A program made the position numbers and the translations under genes. A DNA stretch of 35,087 nucleotides from positions 1 to 35,087 of the forward strand of contig JAFZAP010000050.1 in the NCBI GenBank assembly GCA_017557185.1. Direction: 5' to 3'. This DNA comes from Prevotella sp. GTDB lineage: Bacteria > Bacteroidota > Bacteroidia > Bacteroidales > Bacteroidaceae. Under the pieces are notes generated by a model, which saw only the letters and a list, made by a program, of their open reading frames with translations, was not told the DNA's origin and made no database searches. Shown here piece after piece: positions 3,687-23,172 of this stretch (positions are counted from its first letter, which is position 1; each line of letters opens with the position of its first letter).

Positions 3687-5252
3687 TTACATCGGCATGC
3701 AGCCGTGTTTCTTGGCGGGAAGCGACTGCTTCTTGCAGGCCAGCTGAGCAAGTCCGCGACAGATGCGGAAGCGGGTGTTACGAGGCTCGATGACGTCGTC
3801 GATGTAACCGTATTGTGCTGCCTGATAAGGATTTGCGAAGAGTTCGCTATACTCTTCCTCCTTCTCGGCAAGGAAGGCGCGCACGTCTTCGCCGGCTTCC
3901 TTCTTGGCCTTGGCTTCCTTCGCACAGAGCACGGCGACGGCACCCGAGGCGCCCATCACGGCAATCTCGCTGGTGGGCCAGGCGAAGTTCAAGTCGGCAC
4001 GAAGCTGCTTGCACCCCATCACGATGTGGCTGCCGCCGTACGACTTGCGAAGCGTGATCGTGACCTTGGGAACGGTGGCTTCGCCGTAGGCATAGAGCAA
4101 CTGGGCTCCATGCAGGATGACGGCGTTGTACTCCTGTCCTGTGCCGGGCAGGAATCCCGGTACGTCGACGAGGCTCACGATGGGGATGTTGAAAGCATCG
4201 CAGAAGCGCACGAAGCGGGCACCCTTGCGCGAGGCATTTGCATCGAGAACGCCGGCATAGGCTGCAGGCTGATTGGCCACGATGCCCACGCTCTGTCCGT
4301 TGAAGCGTGCAAAGCCCACGATGATGTTCTTGGCGAACTTCGGCTGCACCTCGAAGAAATCTCCGTTGTCGGTGATAGCCGTTATCACCTTATACATATC
4401 ATAAGCCTTGTTGGGGTCGTCGGGAATAATCTCGTTGAGCAGGTCTTCCTTGCGGTCGATGGGATCGTTGCACTCCACCCGCGGAGCTTCCTCCATGTTG
4501 TTGGAAGGAATGTAGGAGAGCAGCGTCTTGATCATCTGCATAGCCTCTTCTTCCGTCTTGGCAGTGAACGAGGTCACACCGCTCTTCGAAGCATGCACGC
4601 TTGCTCCGCCGAGGTTCTCTGCGTCGACATCCTCGCCTGTCACCGCCTTCACAACGGCAGGACCGGTCAGGAACATATACGACGTGTTCTCCATCATCAG
4701 GATGAAATCGGTGAGGGCAGGGGAGTAGACGGCACCGCCTGCGCAGGGCCCCATGATGGCGGAGATCTGCGGAATCACACCGCTTGCCAGGATGTTGCGC
4801 TCGAAAATCTCACCATAGCCGGCCAGCGAGCAGATGCCTTCCTGAATGCGGGCACCGCCGGAGTCGTTCATGCAGATCATCGGAGCGCCGTTCTGCATCG
4901 CCATATCCATGACCTTGCAGATCTTCTGCGACATCGTCTCTGAGAGCGAACCGCCGTTGACGGTGAAATCCTGGGCGCTGACATACACCAAGCGGCCGTC
5001 GATGGTGGCAGAACCTACTACGACGCCGTCGCCCAGATACTGCTTCTTCTCCATACCGAAGTTATGGCAACGGTGCAGCTTGAACATGTCATACTCTTCA
5101 AAGGACCCTTCGTCGACCAACATCTCGATGCGTTCGCGTGCTGTGTATTTTCCACGCTGGTGTTGTTTGTCGATTGCTTTCTCACCACCACCCAGACGGG
5201 CCTTCTCCCGACGGGCAATGAGTTCCTTGATTTTTTCGGTTTGTTTACTCAT
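3687..5252 (-). CDS. mmdA: acyl-CoA carboxyltransferase alpha subunit (methylmalonyl-CoA decarboxylase type)
   Basis: A 521-aa protein, the normal length for MmdA/PccB. It has the two crotonase-like carboxyltransferase halves. The N-half carries RERIEMLVDEGSFEEYD, then DFTVNGGSLSE, NDSGGARIQEG and GPCAGGAVYSPALTDF. The C-half carries NQPAAYAGVLDANASRKGARF, LVDVPGFLPGTGQE and YGGSHIVMGCKQLRAD. The ASRKGARF segment and the GxGG-like loops bind the acyl-CoA and biotin. It transfers the carboxyl group between methylmalonyl-CoA (or propionyl-CoA) and the biotin carrier. In succinate/propionate fermenters this is the decarboxylation step. It is first in a three-gene operon behind a textbook promoter. 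The membrane beta subunit (OadB/MmdB) and a biotin carboxylase are not adjacent. Confidence 0.92.
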   Translation of the reverse strand: MSKQTEKIKELIARREKARLGGGEKAIDKQHQRGKYTARERIEMLVDEGSFEEYDMFKLHRCHNFGMEKKQYLGDGVVVGSATIDGRLVYVSAQDFTVNGGSLSETMSQKICKVMDMAMQNGAPMICMNDSGGARIQEGICSLAGYGEIFERNILASGVIPQISAIMGPCAGGAVYSPALTDFILMMENTSYMFLTGPAVVKAVTGEDVDAENLGGASVHASKSGVTSFTAKTEEEAMQMIKTLLSYIPSNNMEEAPRVECNDPIDRKEDLLNEIIPDDPNKAYDMYKVITAITDNGDFFEVQPKFAKNIIVGFARFNGQSVGIVANQPAAYAGVLDANASRKGARFVRFCDAFNIPIVSLVDVPGFLPGTGQEYNAVILHGAQLLYAYGEATVPKVTITLRKSYGGSHIVMGCKQLRADLNFAWPTSEIAVMGASGAVAVLCAKEAKAKKEAGEDVRAFLAEKEEEYSELFANPYQAAQYGYIDDVIEPRNTRFRICRGLAQLACKKQSLPAKKHGCMPM

Positions 5253-5321: not shown

Positions 5322-5411
5322 AGAATTTATTGTTTTTTAGTAGTATTTCTACAAAGGTTGTGCATGAAAACTATAAATGTAATATCGAGATTGCAAATAA
5401 TACATAAAAAA

Positions 5412-5443
5412 TTTGGATAATTGCACAAAAAGTAGTAATTTTG
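5412..5443 (+). promoter_or_regulatory. ppdK promoter
   Basis: TTTG (5412-5415) and TAATTTTG (5436-5443) are 20 bp apart. The 19-mer ending in TAATTTTGC (5426-5444) recurs exactly in the rho promoter. The leader is about 80 nt and AT-rich. Confidence 0.78.
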
Positions 5444-5529
5444 CGCAACTTTTGGAATGAATTCCAGAGAGGTATTGGTTTTTATTGAGAAAGAAAAAGA
5501 GAAATTACAATAACTTAATTTGTTAACAA

Positions 5530-8250
5530 ATGAATCAGAAAAGAGTTTATACCTTTGGTAACGGAAAAGCTGAGGGTAACGCAAAAATGCGTGAAGAGCT
5601 GGGTGGCAAGGGTGCCAACCTGGCCGAAATGAATCTGATAGGTGTTCCCGTTCCTCCGGGCTTCACCATCACGACAGATTGCTGCAACGAGTACTACGAG
5701 GTGGGTCAGGAGAAGATCATGGAACTCCTCAACGACGACGTGATGGCTGCCGTGAAGCACATCGAGGACCTGATGAACTCGAAGTTCGGCGACAAGGAGA
5801 ATCCTCTGCTCGTCAGCGTTCGCTCGGGTGCCCGCGCTTCGATGCCCGGTATGATGGATACCATCCTGAACCTCGGTCTGAACGACGAGGTTGCTGAGGG
5901 TATGGTCGGCAAGACGCAGAATCCCCACTTCGTCTATGACAGCTATCGCCGCTTCGTGCAGATGTACGGCGATGTGGTGCTCGAGATGAAGCCTGTCAAC
6001 AAGGAGGATATCGATCCGTTCGAGGAGATCATCGAGCAGGTGAAGGCCGAGCGCGGTGTGAAACTCGACAAGGACCTCAGCGTCGACGAGCTGAAGAAGC
6101 TGGTGAAGCTCTTCAAGGCTGCCATCAAGGAGCGCACGGGCAAGGACTTCCCCGACGATCCCATTGAGCAGCTCTGGGGCGCTATCTGTGCTGTGTTCCG
6201 CAGCTGGATGAACGAGCGCGCCATCCTCTATCGTAAGATGGAAGGCATTCCCGACGAGTGGGGTACGGCTGTCAGCGTGATGGCTATGGTGTTCGGTAAC
6301 ATGGGCGATACCTCTGCAACGGGTGTTTGCTTCAGCCGCGATGCCGCTAACGGTGAGAACGTGTTCAATGGTGAGTATCTCGTGAACGCTCAGGGTGAGG
6401 ATGTCGTTGCCGGTATCCGCACTCCGCAGCAGATCACGAAGCTGGGTTCCCAGCGTTGGGCAAAGCGCGCCAGCATCTCTGAGGAGGAGCGTGCTGCCAA
6501 ATATCCTTCGATGGAAGAGGCTATGCCTGAGATCTATGCCCAGCTGAACGGCATTCAGGAGAAGCTCGAGAAGCACTATCATGACATGCAGGACATGGAG
6601 TTCACCGTTCAGGAAGGCAAGCTCTGGTTCCTCCAGACACGTAATGGTAAGCGCACGGGTGCCGCTATGGTGAAGATCGCCATCGACCTGCTCCACGAGG
6701 GCATGATCGACGAGAAGACTGCCATCATGCGTTGTGAGCCCAACAAGCTCGACGAGCTACTTCACCCCGTATTCGATAAGGTTGCCCTCTCGAAGGCTAA
6801 GGTCATCGCTCAGGGTCTGCCCGCCAGCCCGGGCGCTGCCTGCGGTCAGATTGTGTTCCACGCCGACGATGCCCAGGCTTGGCATCAGGATGGCCACAAG
6901 GTGATTCTCGTCCGCATCGAGACTTCGCCCGAGGACCTCGCTGGTATGTCGGCCGCTCAGGGTATCCTCACCGCTCGTGGCGGTATGACCTCTCACGCTG
7001 CCGTTGTGGCACGTGGTATGGGTAAGTGCTGCGTATCGGGTGTTGGAGCGCTGAATGTCGACTACAAGTCGAAGACTGTCGAGATCGACGGTGTGGTTTA
7101 CAAGGAAGGCGACTTCCTCTCGCTGAATGGTACTACCGGTCAGGTCTATGCCGGCGAGGTTCCCACCAAGGCTGCCGAGCTGAGTGGCGACTTCAAGGAG
7201 CTCATGGATCTCTGCGACAAGTACACGAAGCTGCAGGTGCGCACCAATGCCGATACTCCTCACGATGCTGAGGTGGCTCGTGCCTTTGGTGCAAAGGGTA
7301 TTGGTCTGACCCGTACTGAGCACATGTTCTTCGACGATAAGAAGATCATCGCTATGCGCGAGATGATTCTTTCCGACACTCCCGAGGGACGCGAGAAGGC
7401 TCTTGCCAAGCTGCTGCCTTACCAGAAGGCCGACTTCAAGGGTATCCTTGAGGCTATGAACGGACTGCCCGTCAACATCCGTCTGCTCGATCCTCCTCTC
7501 CATGAGTTCGTTCCCCACGATCTCGCCGGACAGGAGATTATGGCTAAGGAGATGGGCGTGAGCCTGGAGACCATCCAGCGTCGCGTGAACTCGCTTGCCG
7601 AGAACAACCCGATGCTCGGTCATCGTGGCTGCCGTCTGGGTATCACCTTCCCCGAAATCACAGCTATGCAGACCCGCGCCATCCTCGGTGCTGCCTGCGA
7701 GTTGAAGAAGGAAGGCAAAGATCCTCAGCCCGAAATCATGGTTCCGCTTATTGGTACGCTCCACGAGCTCGAGCAGCAGAAGAGCATCATCGAGAAGGTT
7801 GCCAAGGAAGTGTTTGCCGAGTATGGTGTTGAGATTAAGTTCGAGATCGGTACGATGATTGAGATTCCTCGTGCTGCCCTCACCGCTGATCGCATCGCCG
7901 AGCAGGCAGAGTACTTCTCATTCGGTACCAACGACCTCACGCAGATGACCTTCGGCTACAGCCGCGACGACATCGCTTCGTTCCTGCCCGTTTATCTCGA
8001 TAAGAAGATCCTGAAAGTTGACCCGTTCCAGGTGCTCGACCAGAAGGGTGTCGGCCAGCTCGTGAAGATGGCTGTCGAGAAGGGTCGTGCCGTACGTCCG
8101 AACCTCCGCACCGGTATCTGCGGTGAGCATGGTGGTGAACCCAGCTCTGTGAAGTTCTGCGCCAAGATCGGCCTGAACTACGCCAGCTGTTCGCCCTTCC
8201 GTGTGCCCATCGCCCGCCTAGCCGCCGCGCAGGCTGCCGTTGAGGATTGA
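5530..8250 (+). CDS. ppdK: pyruvate, phosphate dikinase
   Basis: A 906-aa protein, the usual length for PPDK. It interconverts pyruvate, ATP and Pi with PEP, AMP and PPi. Three domains are visible. The N-terminal nucleotide-binding domain begins VYTFGNGKAEG and contains LGGKGANLAEM and RSGARASMPGMMDT. The central swivelling domain carries GGMTSHAAVVARGMG, in which His489 is the phosphorylated residue. The C-terminal PEP/pyruvate barrel carries GIGLTRTEHMFF, RLLDPPLHEF, GTMIEIPRAAL, FFSFGTNDLTQM and GICGEHGGEP; the Cys of GICGEH is the expected general acid. It has its own promoter and ends at a strong hairpin. Codon use is GC-rich and biased, consistent with high expression. PPi-linked PEP/pyruvate exchange suits an anaerobic fermenter. 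Confidence 0.97.
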   Translation: MNQKRVYTFGNGKAEGNAKMREELGGKGANLAEMNLIGVPVPPGFTITTDCCNEYYEVGQEKIMELLNDDVMAAVKHIEDLMNSKFGDKENPLLVSVRSGARASMPGMMDTILNLGLNDEVAEGMVGKTQNPHFVYDSYRRFVQMYGDVVLEMKPVNKEDIDPFEEIIEQVKAERGVKLDKDLSVDELKKLVKLFKAAIKERTGKDFPDDPIEQLWGAICAVFRSWMNERAILYRKMEGIPDEWGTAVSVMAMVFGNMGDTSATGVCFSRDAANGENVFNGEYLVNAQGEDVVAGIRTPQQITKLGSQRWAKRASISEEERAAKYPSMEEAMPEIYAQLNGIQEKLEKHYHDMQDMEFTVQEGKLWFLQTRNGKRTGAAMVKIAIDLLHEGMIDEKTAIMRCEPNKLDELLHPVFDKVALSKAKVIAQGLPASPGAACGQIVFHADDAQAWHQDGHKVILVRIETSPEDLAGMSAAQGILTARGGMTSHAAVVARGMGKCCVSGVGALNVDYKSKTVEIDGVVYKEGDFLSLNGTTGQVYAGEVPTKAAELSGDFKELMDLCDKYTKLQVRTNADTPHDAEVARAFGAKGIGLTRTEHMFFDDKKIIAMREMILSDTPEGREKALAKLLPYQKADFKGILEAMNGLPVNIRLLDPPLHEFVPHDLAGQEIMAKEMGVSLETIQRRVNSLAENNPMLGHRGCRLGITFPEITAMQTRAILGAACELKKEGKDPQPEIMVPLIGTLHELEQQKSIIEKVAKEVFAEYGVEIKFEIGTMIEIPRAALTADRIAEQAEYFSFGTNDLTQMTFGYSRDDIASFLPVYLDKKILKVDPFQVLDQKGVGQLVKMAVEKGRAVRPNLRTGICGEHGGEPSSVKFCAKIGLNYASCSPFRVPIARLAAAQAAVED

Positions 8251-9556: not shown

Positions 9557-9628
9557 GTGTTTTTCATGGTATTAGATTATTAAGGTTAATTAAAGATTGG
9601 TTGTCGTGAGACAATCAATTTTTTTTTT
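9557..9628 (+). ncRNA. candidate small RNA of about 70 nt
   Basis: A consensus promoter (9522-9552) is followed within about 75 nt by a strong intrinsic terminator (9596-9628), with no ORF between. The transcript would have an unstructured AU-rich 5' part containing ATTAGATTATTAAGGTTAA, then the terminator hairpin. It lies between a forward gene and the convergent glpQ-like gene. The alternative is that the hairpin simply ends the DUF3256 transcript and the promoter match is chance. The exact box spacing favours a real transcript. I cannot name a known family. Confidence 0.5.
9596..9628 (+). terminator. intrinsic terminator with 10-T run
   Basis: ATTGGTTGTC (9596-9605), a GTGA loop, and GACAATCAAT (9610-9619) form a 10-bp stem with one G-U pair, followed by ten T (9619-9628). 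Confidence 0.85.
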
Positions 9629-10679: not shown

Positions 10680-10753
10680 TGATTCCGGCGGGATTCAAAC
10701 CCACAACCTTCTGATCCGTAGTCAGATGCTCTATTCAGTTGAGCTACGGAACC
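10680..10753 (-). tRNA. tRNA-Arg (ACG), second of the pair
   Basis: A 74-nt cloverleaf. The acceptor GGTTCCG pairs with CGGAATC (one G-U), discriminator A. The anticodon arm is TCTGA-CTACGGA-TCAGA, giving anticodon ACG, which reads CGU/CGC/CGA after inosine modification. The T arm contains GGTTTGAATCC-type sequence. CCA is not encoded. It is identical base for base to the copy at 10789-10862. Confidence 0.95.
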
Positions 10754-10788
10754 ATCCGTATTTGTTTTGTGCTTACTCGGCTTGAAAG

Positions 10789-10862
10789 TGATTCCGGCGG
10801 GATTCAAACCCACAACCTTCTGATCCGTAGTCAGATGCTCTATTCAGTTGAGCTACGGAACC
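10789..10862 (-). tRNA. tRNA-Arg (ACG), first of the pair
   Basis: The same 74-nt sequence and structure as the copy at 10680-10753, with anticodon ACG and no encoded CCA. The two are separated by a 35-nt spacer and share one promoter and one terminator. Confidence 0.95.
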
Positions 10863-17750: not shown

Positions 17751-18164
17751 TTAGTTTACTTTCTTTAAAGTCAAAGTACACGTGCTGTTGTCATCCAGCG
17801 TTCCGTCCATCTTGACCGAAAGTGTGGCTCCGTTCTGTGACAATAGCGTATAAACAAACATCGGCTCGCTCGTCCTTGCGTTATAGGTTTTGATGCGACC
17901 ACCTTCAATCTTGTAAGCGTCTTCCATCGAGAACCAACCCTTGCATGTTCCGTCAGACTTGAACTCTGCCTCACTTCCTACAAAAAGCCAGTTGCCGTGC
18001 TCGTTATTTCCAGCAATATTGGTAATCTTCCACTTGCCGACAATAATCTCTTTCGTGAACGACAATGAAGACTCGTCGTCATCATCACTACTGCAAGCTG
18101 TAAATCCCATGCTTACCAATGCAATCATCAGGATTGCCGTTAAATAGGAAAAAAACTTTTTCAT
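17751..18164 (-). CDS. surface lipoprotein, lipocalin-like, 137 aa
   Basis: The start is placed at ATG 18164, which overlaps the upstream TGA as ATGA. An ATG 6 nt earlier (18170) is possible. The lipobox ends FTAC (Cys24), followed by SSDDDDESS, matching the acidic lipoprotein export signal that sends Bacteroidetes lipoproteins to the cell surface. The mature ~110 residues begin with IIVGKWKITNI, then EAEFKSDGTCKGWFSM and FVYTLLSQNGATLSVKMDG, and end in TCTLTLKKVN. The GKW start and short beta-hairpin pattern suit a lipocalin-like or META-like barrel. No ligand can be inferred. It is translationally coupled to the preceding lipoprotein. Confidence 0.8.
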   Translation of the reverse strand: MKKFFSYLTAILMIALVSMGFTACSSDDDDESSLSFTKEIIVGKWKITNIAGNNEHGNWLFVGSEAEFKSDGTCKGWFSMEDAYKIEGGRIKTYNARTSEPMFVYTLLSQNGATLSVKMDGTLDDNSTCTLTLKKVN

Positions 18165-19009
18165 TTCCATGTGTATGTATAAATTAAGTCTGATTTGTCG
18201 TCTTTGAACGAATAGGACAAATGAATTCTTTCTATCGTGCCATCCTTATTGTAATAATAATCGCGATATGATAACTCGTCTGTAAGTACCCAATTTTTAC
18301 TCGTCCAGCGTGTCAGTTGGCCTTTTGTATTATATTGATAGGTATTATCCTTTTGAACGGTGCTTTTTCCTGTTTTATCATTAATCCAAGTCTCTTTTAG
18401 CAGATTATGGTGGCTGTCATATTCCCAGACCATCGTACCAAAAGGAGAGCCGTCTTGAAGCATAGTTGACACTTCTGTCACGGTGTTTCCACTATAGGAA
18501 TATTTCCTCACGTATCCATAACTTGTACTCGACAAGGCATTGCGCTCCGTCAATTTTGACAAACGTTTACTGCTGTCATATTCATAAGTATATTCAGTGA
18601 TTAGCTTCCCATCATCGTTATATTGCTGCATCACGGAAACAGAGTCGAATTCATTATACTGATATTTGTATTTGTAGGTAGAAAGCCCCACTTCGTCCAT
18701 AACTATAGCTCTGTTTCTCTCATCATAGGTATATTTATAGCTATGGTATAATCGTGTCTTTGTAACCGAACTATAGTAATTGGTTATCTTCTCAAGAAGA
18801 TTTCCCTTTTCGTCATACTTATAGTTCTCGTAATCTTCGCCATAGGTTGTTCGTTCTCCAAACTTCCAAGGATGTTCCTTTACGGTAATCTCTGCAAGAA
18901 ATTTCTTGCCATTACTACCAGACGTACCGTTGTCATCATCATCAGATGAGCAACTTACAAGATTGAACATCATCGTCAATCCCATTGTCAACAATAAAAC
19001 CTTTTTCAT
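18161..19009 (-). CDS. surface lipoprotein with YD-like repeats, 282 aa
   Basis: The lipobox ends NLVSC (Cys20), followed by SSDDDDNGTSG, again a surface export signal. The mature protein is a run of Tyr/Asp-rich beta segments of about 20-30 residues: YDEKGNLLEKITNYY, YTYDERNRAIV, YQYNEFDSVSVMQQYNDDGK, YEYDSSKRLSKLTE, WEYDSHHNLLKETW and YQYNTKGQLTRW. This resembles the YD/RHS-type repeat of wall-binding beta proteins, though shorter. It has no enzyme motif and probably binds something at the surface. Its codons are more AT-rich than those of the housekeeping neighbours. It is first in a two-gene operon behind a long structured leader. Confidence 0.8.
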   Translation of the reverse strand: MKKVLLLTMGLTMMFNLVSCSSDDDDNGTSGSNGKKFLAEITVKEHPWKFGERTTYGEDYENYKYDEKGNLLEKITNYYSSVTKTRLYHSYKYTYDERNRAIVMDEVGLSTYKYKYQYNEFDSVSVMQQYNDDGKLITEYTYEYDSSKRLSKLTERNALSSTSYGYVRKYSYSGNTVTEVSTMLQDGSPFGTMVWEYDSHHNLLKETWINDKTGKSTVQKDNTYQYNTKGQLTRWTSKNWVLTDELSYRDYYYNKDGTIERIHLSYSFKDDKSDLIYTYTWK

Positions 19010-19019
19010 GTCGCTTATA

Positions 19020-19204
19020 AATTTTGTTTGTCAAATAAAATGCGCAGGTCATTCCCACGCACTCCCGGCTCACCACAAGCCTCAGTAACCGTTGAAACGC
19101 CTGCGCACTATGCGCTGACGCCCTTGTTACTGATTGGCTCAGTTAGTCCGAGGTGGTGATTGGGAGTGTAGAGCCTACTATGTCCTGTGTCTCTATCGAA
19201 ACAC
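19020..19204 (-). promoter_or_regulatory. highly structured 5' leader, candidate cis-regulatory RNA
   Basis: Between the promoter box (19209-19216) and the lipoprotein ATG lie about 190 nt with nested pairings. A GATA-loop hairpin GTGTTTC/GAGACAC (19187-19204) sits at the expected transcript start. CACTCCC pairs with GGGAGTG (19060-19066 with 19162-19168), TCACCAC with GTGGTGA (19070-19076 with 19153-19159), and AGCC+TCAGTAAC with GTTACTGA+TT+GGCT (19078-19089 with 19126-19139). The apical GCGCA-TAG-TGCGC hairpin (19103-19115) tops it. CCTGCGCA (19041-19048, last in the RNA) can also pair with TGCGCAGG (19100-19107), competing with the apical hairpin, and is followed by TTTTATTT. This looks like an attenuator or riboswitch. 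I matched it to no known class. Confidence 0.6.
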
Positions 19205-19208
19205 GCTG

Positions 19209-19216
19209 CAAAGATA
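19209..19216 (-). promoter_or_regulatory. promoter -7 box of the lipoprotein operon
   Basis: The reverse strand reads TATCTTTG. The first base of the leader hairpin lies about 5 nt downstream, where the transcript should begin. Confidence 0.65.
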
Positions 19217-19312
19217 CAAAGAATTATTGGAAATAGATTCGGTATTGTAAAAAAGTTGAAGAAAAAAGTTTAAAATGATGTTGAAGGATTAGGAAATCCG
19301 AATAATAATTAG

Positions 19313-19320
19313 TATATTTG
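19313..19320 (+). promoter_or_regulatory. promoter -7 box of the 455-aa gene
   Basis: TATATTTG, a TAnnTTTG match, 20 nt before the ATG. The leader would be only about 15 nt. No clear upstream TTTG box. Confidence 0.6.
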
Positions 19321-19340
19321 TAGGCAAAAACTTAGTAACT

Positions 19341-20928: not shown

Positions 20929-23172
20929 ATGAGATTAAATAACAAAACGATGGACACAATCCAACAAGGACTAGAGAAGAATCACATGGCTGCTCTGAAA
21001 GTCAGCCTGTTTAAAAACCTCTTCTCATTCAACAGCAAGGCTGTAGAGCTCTCAGAGATAGTGAGACTCATCAAGTATGACAATGACGTGAAGAACAAGT
21101 CGGAGGCTTATGTGTCAATGATGAGAGCCGTAGGCAAGAAGGAGGCTGACGATCAAGTGAAGCAAAAACAGTTGCCGGCCTGCTCAATTGGCGTATTATT
21201 CAACGGTGTAGGCCGACAGGTGCAACACATCCTCAGTTTCACTAGTTTGGGTTTTGTCGACTTGGACCAGATCGAAGACGTGGGTAAGGCCTTGAAACTG
21301 ATAAAGGCTGACCCGCACACGCTGATGGCTTACGTTACAGTCGGAAAGAAAGGATTACGGGTCATTTACTCATACGTACGCGAGCAGTCTGACGCCCATG
21401 TTGACTCTACTTCCTGGCGGGCGGCATTCTTAAAAGGAAACAACCACTATGCCGCTCTGACAGGACAACCTTATGACAACCAGTGCGCGGACTACGGTCA
21501 TCTTTGCGGGTTGGCACATGATGAAGATGTCTATGTGAACTATAGTGCAGAGCCATTTGTCATCACTGATGATGAAATCCTGCAGGCCAACTTTGCTTCT
21601 GGTAGTGAGAAGGGAAAGCCTCGCAAGGAGCATGACCCTGGTTCATTTGAGGTGAGCGTTGAAGGGGCATGGCCCAAGGTGCAGGGGATTCTGACAAAAC
21701 GCAACCTTGCCTTCCAACCAGGCCATCACCATGATTATGTCATGCATGCCAGTTTTCTCTTCAATCGCTTTGGTGTAGACCTTGAGGAACTCTTGGAATG
21801 GGCTTCTCAAGAGTGGAACGCCTATAACGACAAGCAGCGTGAGGCGACCATTCGTAGCTGCTACAAGAAAGAAGATGAACATGGTACTTGGAAGCTGAAC
21901 CAGTCAGGCCGGAAGAAGGAGAACTCGATGATTACCCTTCCCGAGATTGCCGAATGGTTAAAACAGAGATACGAATTGAAGTATGACGAGGTGACAGACT
22001 TGACGTACTGTCGATTGAAAGATTCTCATGAATGGAATACTGCGGACACCCGAACGATATGTACCATCCGGCGACTAATGGCTGAAGACACTGGCAAACG
22101 CGTATTGAAGACAGACGTTCAGGATGTCATGTGGAGTGACATCGCGGTGTCGGTACATCCCGTCAGAGCCTATCTTGAAGTACTTCCAAAGTGGGATGGC
22201 ATTGACCGTGTGGCACAGCTGGCTTCGTATATTGAAGTTGAACCTGCCCAGGCAGGGCAGAGTGATGAAGAGGCTCGTGATTTGCTCGAATGGGCGATGC
22301 ACAAATGGTTGGTAGGAAACGTGGGCATGTGGGAGCGCGACGATGTGGTCAACCACGAAATGCTGATCTTTGTAGGACCTCAGGGAATATACAAGACCAC
22401 GTTCTTCCGTTACCTGTTGCCACCTACACTCAGACGTTTCTATTGGGAGAATAACCACAATAAATTCTCTTCTAAAGACGACCAGATTGCATTGGGCGAG
22501 AATTGCCTAGTGGAGGTTGAGGAATTTAACATCACCACTTATAAGGAAATAGGTGTTCTAAAATCATCGCTGACGTCTAATAATATTAAGGAACGCAGAC
22601 CTTATGCGCGGCAGCGGGAAGAGAAGCACAGGTTGGCAGGTTTCTGTGGAACGTGCAACGAACAGTTCTTCCTTGCAGACGAAACGGGCAATCGCCGATT
22701 CCTCTGCTTCCTCGTTAAATGGATTAAAAACCCGAGGGAATGGGATATGGACTACGATCAACTATATGCCCAGCTTCGTTATGAGTTTCGATCTGGCGTA
22801 GAATATTGGTTCAACTATGAAGATGAACAGCGCATGGCACTTCAAAATGAGGAATTCCGTCTGTTGAGTGACGAGGAGATGCTGATACGTACTTATCTGC
22901 GCAAACCAAATTCCAATGAATCAGGAGAATTGATGAATGCTGCCAATATAATCCTTTACATCAATGGAGGTCGGTTGGGCAACGGGCTTTCCAGCAAGAA
23001 AGTCGGCTCAATCATGAGGAAACTTAAATACAAACCACAGCACACTTCTAAAGGTAATTTCTATAGGGTAGTTAAAATCTCTCATGATCAAGTTCAAATC
23101 GAAATAGCTAAAGACATGGTAAATGATGGAAATGATATTCCACAAACAGGAGAAGGCGATTTGCCATTCTGA
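20929..23172 (+). CDS. VirE/VapE-family protein with BT4734-like primase-type N-domain
   Basis: A 747-aa protein; ATG at 20929, with an alternative at 20950 (MDTIQQG). The N-domain (about 30-210) shows FTSLGFVDLDQIED with Asp111 and Asp113, then TLMAYVTVGKKGLRVIYSYV and PYDNQCADYGHLCGLAHDEDV, the BT4734-like/AEP-primase-like pattern. A PriCT-like helical part follows (about 245-320). The C-part (about 340-680) is the VirE/D5-like P-loop ATPase, with Walker A GPQGIYKT (483-490), NCLVEVEEFN as the Walker B-like acidic pair, and ETGNRRFLCF as a sensor-type Arg motif. Such proteins are primase-helicases of phage or mobile-element origin. In Bacteroidales they often stand alone near HU-like genes, as here. 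Function in the chromosome is unknown. Confidence 0.85.
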   Translation: MRLNNKTMDTIQQGLEKNHMAALKVSLFKNLFSFNSKAVELSEIVRLIKYDNDVKNKSEAYVSMMRAVGKKEADDQVKQKQLPACSIGVLFNGVGRQVQHILSFTSLGFVDLDQIEDVGKALKLIKADPHTLMAYVTVGKKGLRVIYSYVREQSDAHVDSTSWRAAFLKGNNHYAALTGQPYDNQCADYGHLCGLAHDEDVYVNYSAEPFVITDDEILQANFASGSEKGKPRKEHDPGSFEVSVEGAWPKVQGILTKRNLAFQPGHHHDYVMHASFLFNRFGVDLEELLEWASQEWNAYNDKQREATIRSCYKKEDEHGTWKLNQSGRKKENSMITLPEIAEWLKQRYELKYDEVTDLTYCRLKDSHEWNTADTRTICTIRRLMAEDTGKRVLKTDVQDVMWSDIAVSVHPVRAYLEVLPKWDGIDRVAQLASYIEVEPAQAGQSDEEARDLLEWAMHKWLVGNVGMWERDDVVNHEMLIFVGPQGIYKTTFFRYLLPPTLRRFYWENNHNKFSSKDDQIALGENCLVEVEEFNITTYKEIGVLKSSLTSNNIKERRPYARQREEKHRLAGFCGTCNEQFFLADETGNRRFLCFLVKWIKNPREWDMDYDQLYAQLRYEFRSGVEYWFNYEDEQRMALQNEEFRLLSDEEMLIRTYLRKPNSNESGELMNAANIILYINGGRLGNGLSSKKVGSIMRKLKYKPQHTSKGNFYRVVKISHDQVQIEIAKDMVNDGNDIPQTGEGDLPF

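Follow-up and report, generated by a model that had tools for sequence, protein, structure and literature searches.

The window studied here is the whole 35,087-nucleotide (nt) stretch of contig JAFZAP010000050.1 from Prevotella sp. (assembly GCA_017557185.1). Its minus strand encodes, from 19204 to about 19033, a structured leader RNA that is preceded by a promoter-like motif and followed by two overlapping lipoprotein genes. A sequence-only reading of this region had already advanced the existence of mutually exclusive pairings in a leader ending at a U-rich stretch. Its coordinates were exact, with TGCGCAGG at 19107-19100, CCTGCGCA at 19048-19041 and TTTTATTT at 19040-19033 of the minus strand, and its central claim was borne out: TGCGCAGG can pair either locally, in the helix named P6a below, or with the distal CCTGCGCA, and both pairings covary in relatives. 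The features of the locus, read in the direction of transcription, are the following.

19209-19216, minus strand: -7 promoter element TATCTTTG of the TAnnTTTG class, from sequence, just 5' of the proposed start
19187-19204, minus strand: P1, 5'-terminal hairpin GTGTTTC/GAGACAC, from the minimum free energy (MFE) fold
19136-19175, minus strand: P2, GGCTC (19175-19171) with GAGCC (19140-19136), chosen by RNAalifold; the 5' strands of P3 and P4 lie within its loop (pseudoknot)
19060-19168, minus strand: P3, CACTCCC (19168-19162) with GGGAGTG (19066-19060), from covariation
19070-19159, minus strand: P4, TCACCAC (19159-19153) with GTGGTGA (19076-19070), from covariation
19067-19081, minus strand: P4loc, hairpin GGCT/AGCC whose loop carries the 3' strand of P4 (kissing-type pseudoknot); base 19070 belongs to both
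19083-19132, minus strand: P5, CAGTAAC (19132-19126) with GTTACTG (19089-19083), from covariation
19095-19123, minus strand: P6 (GGGCGTC/GGCGTTT) and P6a (GCGCA/TGCGC), the local competing hairpin
19040-19108, minus strand: P7, long-range helix of 19108-19090 with 19059-19040, core TGCGCAGG/CCTGCGCA, from covariation; duplex of -26.6 kcal/mol
19041-19061, minus strand: T, possible local 3' hairpin before the U-rich tract, -10.4 kcal/mol
19033-19040, minus strand: U-rich tract TTTTATTT, from sequence, directly 3' of CCTGCGCA
18161-19009, minus strand: first downstream gene, an open reading frame (ORF) for a 282-aa lipoprotein (LVSC lipobox, by eye)
17751-18170, minus strand: second gene, a 139-aa lipoprotein (FTACSS lipobox, by eye), overlapping the first by 10 nt

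Folded as the minus strand, the 185 nt of the region reach an MFE of -71.9 kcal/mol, their shuffles averaging -49.5 (z -5.45, none of 200 shuffles equal), whereas the plus strand of the same 185 nt gives a weaker z of -3.37, also with 0/200 shuffles equal. The MFE structure comprises a 7-bp 5' hairpin, nested stems of 6, 7, 5+8, 7 and 5 bp and a 7-bp 3' hairpin, which comes close to the stems of 7, 7 and 12 bp plus an apical hairpin described before, but does not reproduce them exactly. The 5'-terminal hairpin P1 is kept with at least 4 bp in 130 of the 140 copies examined, at a median of -7.4 kcal/mol compared with -2.1 after shuffling. Just before it, TATCTTTG at 19216-19209 matches TAnnTTTG, the -7 consensus of Bacteroidota-type promoters quoted in PMC7366714, and 142 of 162 copies have the same motif at most 70 nt upstream of the RNA, where shuffles would give 9.7, so that the start of the transcript at the 5' end of the fold, as judged by this motif, stands as proposed. 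At the other end, at least five T are found among the 9 nt past the last strand in 154 of 160 relatives, and in the window 23 nt separate the U-rich tract from the lipoprotein gene.

Relatives of the RNA were collected in several ways. A DNA search of the genus gave matches in 25 of 299 genomes, the window's own included, one of which (L033) resembles a coding-sequence match. These correspond to 28 places, from which 24 were aligned (alignment A4) after dropping L033 and three partial copies, L019 (3' part), L021 (altered 3' end) and L023 (5' half), which look like decaying remnants. Covariance models, built without P7, detected the RNA in 126 of 399 genomes of its own family, covering 15 of 30 genera, and in 21 of 393 genomes of the order, 17 of them (own included) at E 1.1e-6 or better and the other four between 2e-4 and 6e-4; in a phylum-wide sample of 296 genomes only the window's own genome matched these models. 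Since the wide searches scored just 7 or 10 candidates per genome, all these genome counts are lower bounds. A deeper search at E 0.01 in 12 genomes (the window's own plus 11 chosen for many matches) revealed 1 to 11 copies in each. The genome of the window contains one full copy, most other DNA matches there covering the promoter, which speaks against a repeat within this genome. In addition, an exact-pattern scan of named genomes returned 110 stretches, and the 80 titles listed are mostly Prevotella, Prevotellaceae, Bacteroidaceae and Bacteroidales metagenome-assembled genomes, many of them named after gut samples of ruminants or other herbivores, together with one isolate (Prevotella sp. 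tf2-5) and a few entries labelled Muribaculaceae, Paludibacteraceae or Lachnospiraceae. A phage or plasmid origin was also considered: the window RNA had no DNA match in plasmid or phage records, where the covariance models were not run, and one exact pattern had 0 matches in viral contigs.

Altogether, 192 model matches were reduced to 164 distinct copies, and three further alignments were analysed. The largest, A5, contains 103 distinct sequences selected with a pattern in which P4 is fixed, together with parts of P2 and P4loc; A6 has 64 rows, 10 of them from pattern-found loci and 17 identical in letters to a row of A5; and A8 is made of 19 model-found loci of other families, two of them also in A5 and 10 sharing less than 80% identity with every row of A5. 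Among the rows of A4, 11 of 24 are letter-identical to one in A5.

Compensatory changes are present in helices P3 to P6. Over its 38 pairs, A5 has 94.7% of cells paired, compared with 75.7% in shuffles and 32 to 44.4% when partners are slid, and 743 cells changed on both sides versus 229 in shuffles. The loci of other families in A8 keep 90.2% of cells paired (66.6% in shuffles) with both-side changes in 32 of 38 pairs (22.5 in shuffles). Taken one by one, P3 shows both-side changes in all seven pairs with 96.1% of A5 cells paired, and P5 in all six pairs examined, with 98.7% paired. As the search pattern of A5 fixes P4, this helix was assessed in A8 and A6, where it is 100% paired with both-side changes in six of seven pairs in either alignment; read as literal strings in the 107 rows of A4, A6 and A8, 83 carry the common pair, 21 differ in both strands and three in one. 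P4loc is complete (4/4) in 22 of the 24 relatives of the first alignment and 100% paired in A5, with both-side changes in two of four pairs, its columns being in part set by the search pattern. P2 retains all its pairs (5/5) in 23 of these 24 relatives, including versions such as GGTTC/GAACC and TGCTC/GAGCA; just 86.6% of its A5 cells are paired, where the 3' strand is partly pattern-fixed and the 5' strand partly misaligned, and inspection by eye did not reveal it in the rows furthest from the window (L232-L236). Because P2 crosses P3 and P4, and P4 pairs with the loop of P4loc, this core is pseudoknotted twice. Moreover, P3, P5 and P7 together contain 150 G-U cells compared with 23 A-C cells, which identifies the minus strand as the functional RNA.

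Two partners compete for a single strand. On the local side, P6 is 85.6% paired in A5, and P6 and P6a together show both-side changes in 12 of 12 pairs in A6 (83.6% paired). On the distal side, RNAalifold picked the long-range pairing unprompted from the first alignment, and the core of P7 is 95.8% paired in A6 (88.6% shuffled) with both-side changes in seven of eight pairs (3.9 shuffled), while in A8 the helix is 91.6% paired (84.2% shuffled) with both-side changes in seven of 10 pairs (2.9 shuffled). The pairing extends beyond this core, since the stretch after P6 and the segment before the last strand fit each other better than swapped partners do in 83 of the 102 rows compared; CATA is found in 42 of the post-P6 stretches and TATG faces all 42 of them (TATG total, 54). 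The energies of the two states are close. In the window, P6/P6a (-14.1) and T (-10.4) add up to -24.5 kcal/mol versus -26.6 for P7, pseudoknot cost excluded, and for the family (103 of 104 rows) the medians are -22.1 for P6/P6a plus T and -23.2 for the extended P7, computed likewise, with at most 5 kcal/mol between them in 80 of 103 rows; with a shuffled segment the P7 median falls to -9.7. One strand with two partners, both of them covarying, is what a bistable switch would leave in its sequence, and the leader RNA has this signature.

The role of hairpin T is less general. Its energy, calculated for 150 of 161 distinct RNAs (the rest lacking anchor or length), is -8 kcal/mol or better in 107 and weaker than -5, that is, the hairpin is absent, in 29. 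T is paired in 83.6, 89.9 and 77.1% of cells in A5, A6 and A8, despite models that favour it, and own strands do better than swapped ones in 150 of 177 cases for T and 156 of 177 for P7. A local terminator hairpin as a family-wide feature was consequently not upheld, and the helix most likely to stand at the U-tract throughout the family is P7 rather than T, which is missing in part of the family and covaries more weakly. In this regard, the attenuator or riboswitch reading held as far as a bistable structured leader is concerned, but the competition seen across the family opposes a local hairpin to a long-range pseudoknot instead of building a textbook terminator.

The spacer behind the U-tract has some recurrences of its own. 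A second recurring sequence lies between the U-tract and the start codon in some relatives (e.g., L083, L136 and L102); GTTAGTGC occurs in 22 and GGCAATATTGC in 15 of 159 such spacers, with complementarity here and there to the RNA's last strand. A fifth strand pairing there with the last strand was examined and is not claimed, as 50 of 159 spacers beat 95% of their shuffles.

The genes behind the RNA offer a diverse panorama. Enough sequence was available for 154 copies; the closest ORF, sought up to 300 nt away, shares the strand of the RNA in 145 of them, lies on the opposite strand in four and is missing in five, and TAnnTTTG appears in the spacer between RNA and gene in six of 136 cases, with 6.3 expected. 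Thus, a promoter before the RNA, no excess of promoters in the spacer, a gene on the same strand and compensatory changes, the marks of a cis-regulatory leader, are all found. Clustering divides the 147 downstream proteins into 80 groups of up to 21 members. According to a crude rule of our own, with tested ORFs of at least 60 aa and background ORFs of at least 100 aa, 109 of the 147 products are exported-like; among neighbouring ORFs the figure is 153 of 434 (odds ratio 5.3, p 2e-16). A lipobox is present in addition in 31 of 147 versus 32 of 434. The position before surface lipoproteins that had been noticed in the window, where the lipoboxes were identified by eye, is in this way extended to a family whose products are mostly exported-like. 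The 282-aa protein itself matches Pfam DUF4972 and RHS repeat only below curated cut-offs, and the second gene of the window falls into one cluster with the genes that directly follow the RNA in L114 and L196. A Pfam scan of 142 of the 147 proteins found LRR_5 (13), LRR_8 (8), Big_2 (6) and DUF4468 (5) among others, and no common pathway is visible in the 25 of 56 Pfam families listed. Within the leader, closed ATG ORFs of at least 10 codons exist in 83 of 162 copies at scattered positions; the absence of a conserved short ORF speaks against a leader-peptide attenuator.

Some copies share their surroundings in spite of unlike genes. Upstream flanks are common to copies with different genes, such as L024 and L071, and L016 and L144 have different first genes and alike second genes (by eye and flank match). 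The pair L018/L137, initially taken as another case of different genes with shared flanks, was dropped because both encode BspA-type LRR proteins. The GMP synthase gene guaA (Pfam for one locus) is found upstream of the RNA at nine loci; in one related genus, two of 18 genomes with guaA (19 loci) carry the RNA within about 1.5 kb of it, the RNA of the genome used as query lying about 1.8 kb away, beyond the reach of that search. The region 3' of guaA in that genus (L197-L215) is very variable and rich in short inverted repeats, and in L215 it holds an apparent tyrosine recombinase gene (by eye). L136 has tandem copies of promoter plus RNA (5044-5203 and 5391-5548), about 190 nt apart with no gene between them. 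Among 25 copies from eight genomes, the median identity is 0.67 within and 0.66 between genomes, the exception being pairs of neighbouring copies, up to 0.95 identical. All this looks less like a recent transposon than like an old leader whose accessory cargo recombines. The window also encodes, at a distance of about 1.7 kb, a protein with VapE-like and BT4734-like N-terminal domains (20929-23172, plus strand), and VapE- and BT4734-like proteins are often found on mobile elements.

The promoter motif, the fold, both covarying pairings with their near-equal energies, the U-tract and the gene context, all computed here, are best brought together by assuming a structured 5' leader, acting in cis and belonging to an RNA family of the Bacteroidales not described before, which would control the gene or genes behind it by strand exchange. 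We regard this explanation as probable, by a modest margin over an even chance. Transcription would start just before P1, followed by formation of the knotted core, with P2, P3, P4 and P5 and the P4loc loop kissing the P2 loop. The strand 19107-19100 could then either be kept in the local P6/P6a or be captured by the last-made strand, 19048-19041, into P7. The 5' strand of P7 runs straight into the 3' strand of P5, so that P7 could stack on P5 as an H-type pseudoknot, directly against the U-rich tract. Such an exchange in cells would most likely decide between a stop of the RNA polymerase at the U-tract and its read-on into the gene 23 nt further, that is, act on transcription termination rather than on translation or stability. 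A shared cell-wide signal, either a ligand, an ion, a protein or temperature, may bias the choice; the diversity of the cargo argues against feedback by the product of one pathway, and no ligand can be named from so varied a gene context. A more specific form of this explanation, a new Bacteroidales class of pseudoknot riboswitch through which one cell-wide signal sets a swappable set of exported and lipoprotein genes, is offered tentatively, with less than an even chance of being right.

Several observations weigh against the strand-exchange leader. The number of A5 pairs changed on both sides is 23, with 20.7 in shuffles (a value reached by 23 of 500 of them), and 73 further pair types compare with 71.6 (reached by 171 of 500), two measures that barely exceed the shuffles because the columns are highly variable. 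In rare classes of the last strand, own pairings beat swapped ones in 12 of 25 cases for T and 17 of 25 for P7. The energies of P7 do not include the cost of a pseudoknot, T is absent from the 29 relatives mentioned above, the U-tracts are frequently short or interrupted, and the exported-like class comes from the crude rule already described. Finally, as T and P7 each place a helix at the U-tract, either could be the terminating state.

Among the rival explanations, the one that survives best is a real switch with a trans-acting sensor, where a protein or a small RNA (sRNA) operates the leader. This proposal, which overlaps with the favoured one, is supported by the very conserved sequences of loops and strands (invariant columns), and a global RNA-binding protein, RbpB, figures in the title of a Bacteroides paper that often mentions FopS (PMC11697453). 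No candidate partner was found, and none was searched for; sequence cannot separate this case from a ligand-binding RNA, and we consider it rather unlikely, if a serious contender. A constitutive 5' untranslated region, in which the 5' hairpin and the knotted core block decay or tune translation with no signal being sensed, would agree with the frequency of P1 and with a diverse cargo of no common pathway, but a mere stabiliser needs neither two covarying partners for one strand nor the prevalent U-tract, and it is accordingly the less probable of the two. A free-standing sRNA ending at the U-tract, the gene behind having its own promoter, could explain the promoter motif, the stable fold and the U-tract of the RNA; it is very improbable given that spacer promoters (of the TAnnTTTG type only) stay at chance level and the nearest gene is so regularly on the same strand. 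The weakest proposal, a DNA-level element such as a folded recombination site or the end of a mobile cassette, would fit the upstream flanks common to copies with different genes, the copies in the variable region near guaA and the mosaic cargo, but is made slightly more improbable still by the excess of G-U over A-C cells, which reveals selection on the RNA strand, by the small number of similar pairs (32 among the 129 flanks that follow the first gene), which speaks against a family-wide 3' border, and by copies as diverged within genomes as between them.

With regard to known families, the leader RNA seems to be new. The covariance-model search of Rfam and of relatives that the sequence-only reading had suggested revealed no known family, the relatives described above and their compensatory changes, and the reading as a whole is partly supported. 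No match fell on the leader RNA when the whole window was compared with Rfam 15 at the gathering threshold; positions 18950-19330, searched up to E 10, gave only mir-459 (E 7.5), and 20 of the 28 genus loci, searched to the same limit, gave nothing on the RNA. Elsewhere in the window, Rfam matches BTncRNA_FopS, a Bacteroidetes family of paralogous sRNAs, at 9557-9628 (plus strand, 75.4 bits, gathering 56), and two tRNA genes lie 35 nt apart at 10680-10862 (minus strand, 62.1 bits each). Structured RNAs of the same phylum are listed in a table of PMC2864571, such as Bacteroidales-1, Bacteroides-1, Bacteroides-2, GUCCY-hairpin and other motifs. Those with Rfam numbers in that table were covered by the Rfam scans, without any match to the leader RNA, whereas Bacteroides-2 and GUCCY-hairpin are listed there without a number and thus lie outside this comparison. 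Thousands of candidate RNAs from human microbiomes (HMP2), including Prevotella and Bacteroidetes ones, are reported in PMC8040213; the candidates given as examples sit at uvrC, TonB, RuvA and TPR, unlike the leader RNA, which is set apart from them by the contexts of these examples only. A literature search by titles and abstract openings found no description of the leader RNA.

If a new riboswitch class with one cell-wide signal is the correct reading, any gene recombined behind the leader would join the same regulon. More generally, a single leader in front of unrelated cargo gives a handle for finding a signal that sets part of the bacterial surface. In any case, this is a large and well-supported RNA family of gut bacteria without an Rfam 15 match, present in several copies in some genomes and mostly before exported proteins, in which the double covariation of one strand predicts exact switching tests.

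By comparison with known systems, the leader RNA may work like an attenuator or a pseudoknot riboswitch. It shares with trp-type attenuators the mutually exclusive strands before a U-tract, but has no conserved leader peptide. As the c-di-GMP (GEMM) riboswitches, it is a single class found in front of many unlike, often exported, genes and in several copies per genome; it differs in having no match to any Rfam family, the folds being compared no further. The pseudoknot riboswitches, such as preQ1, SAM-II and fluoride, are alike in their leader position, in a pseudoknot next to the expression platform and in an alternative local hairpin. The preQ1 case is reviewed in PMC11625349. The leader RNA, which has no match in Rfam, stands apart from these riboswitches through its larger knotted core, made of P2, P3, P4 and P4loc, and through the diversity of its cargo.
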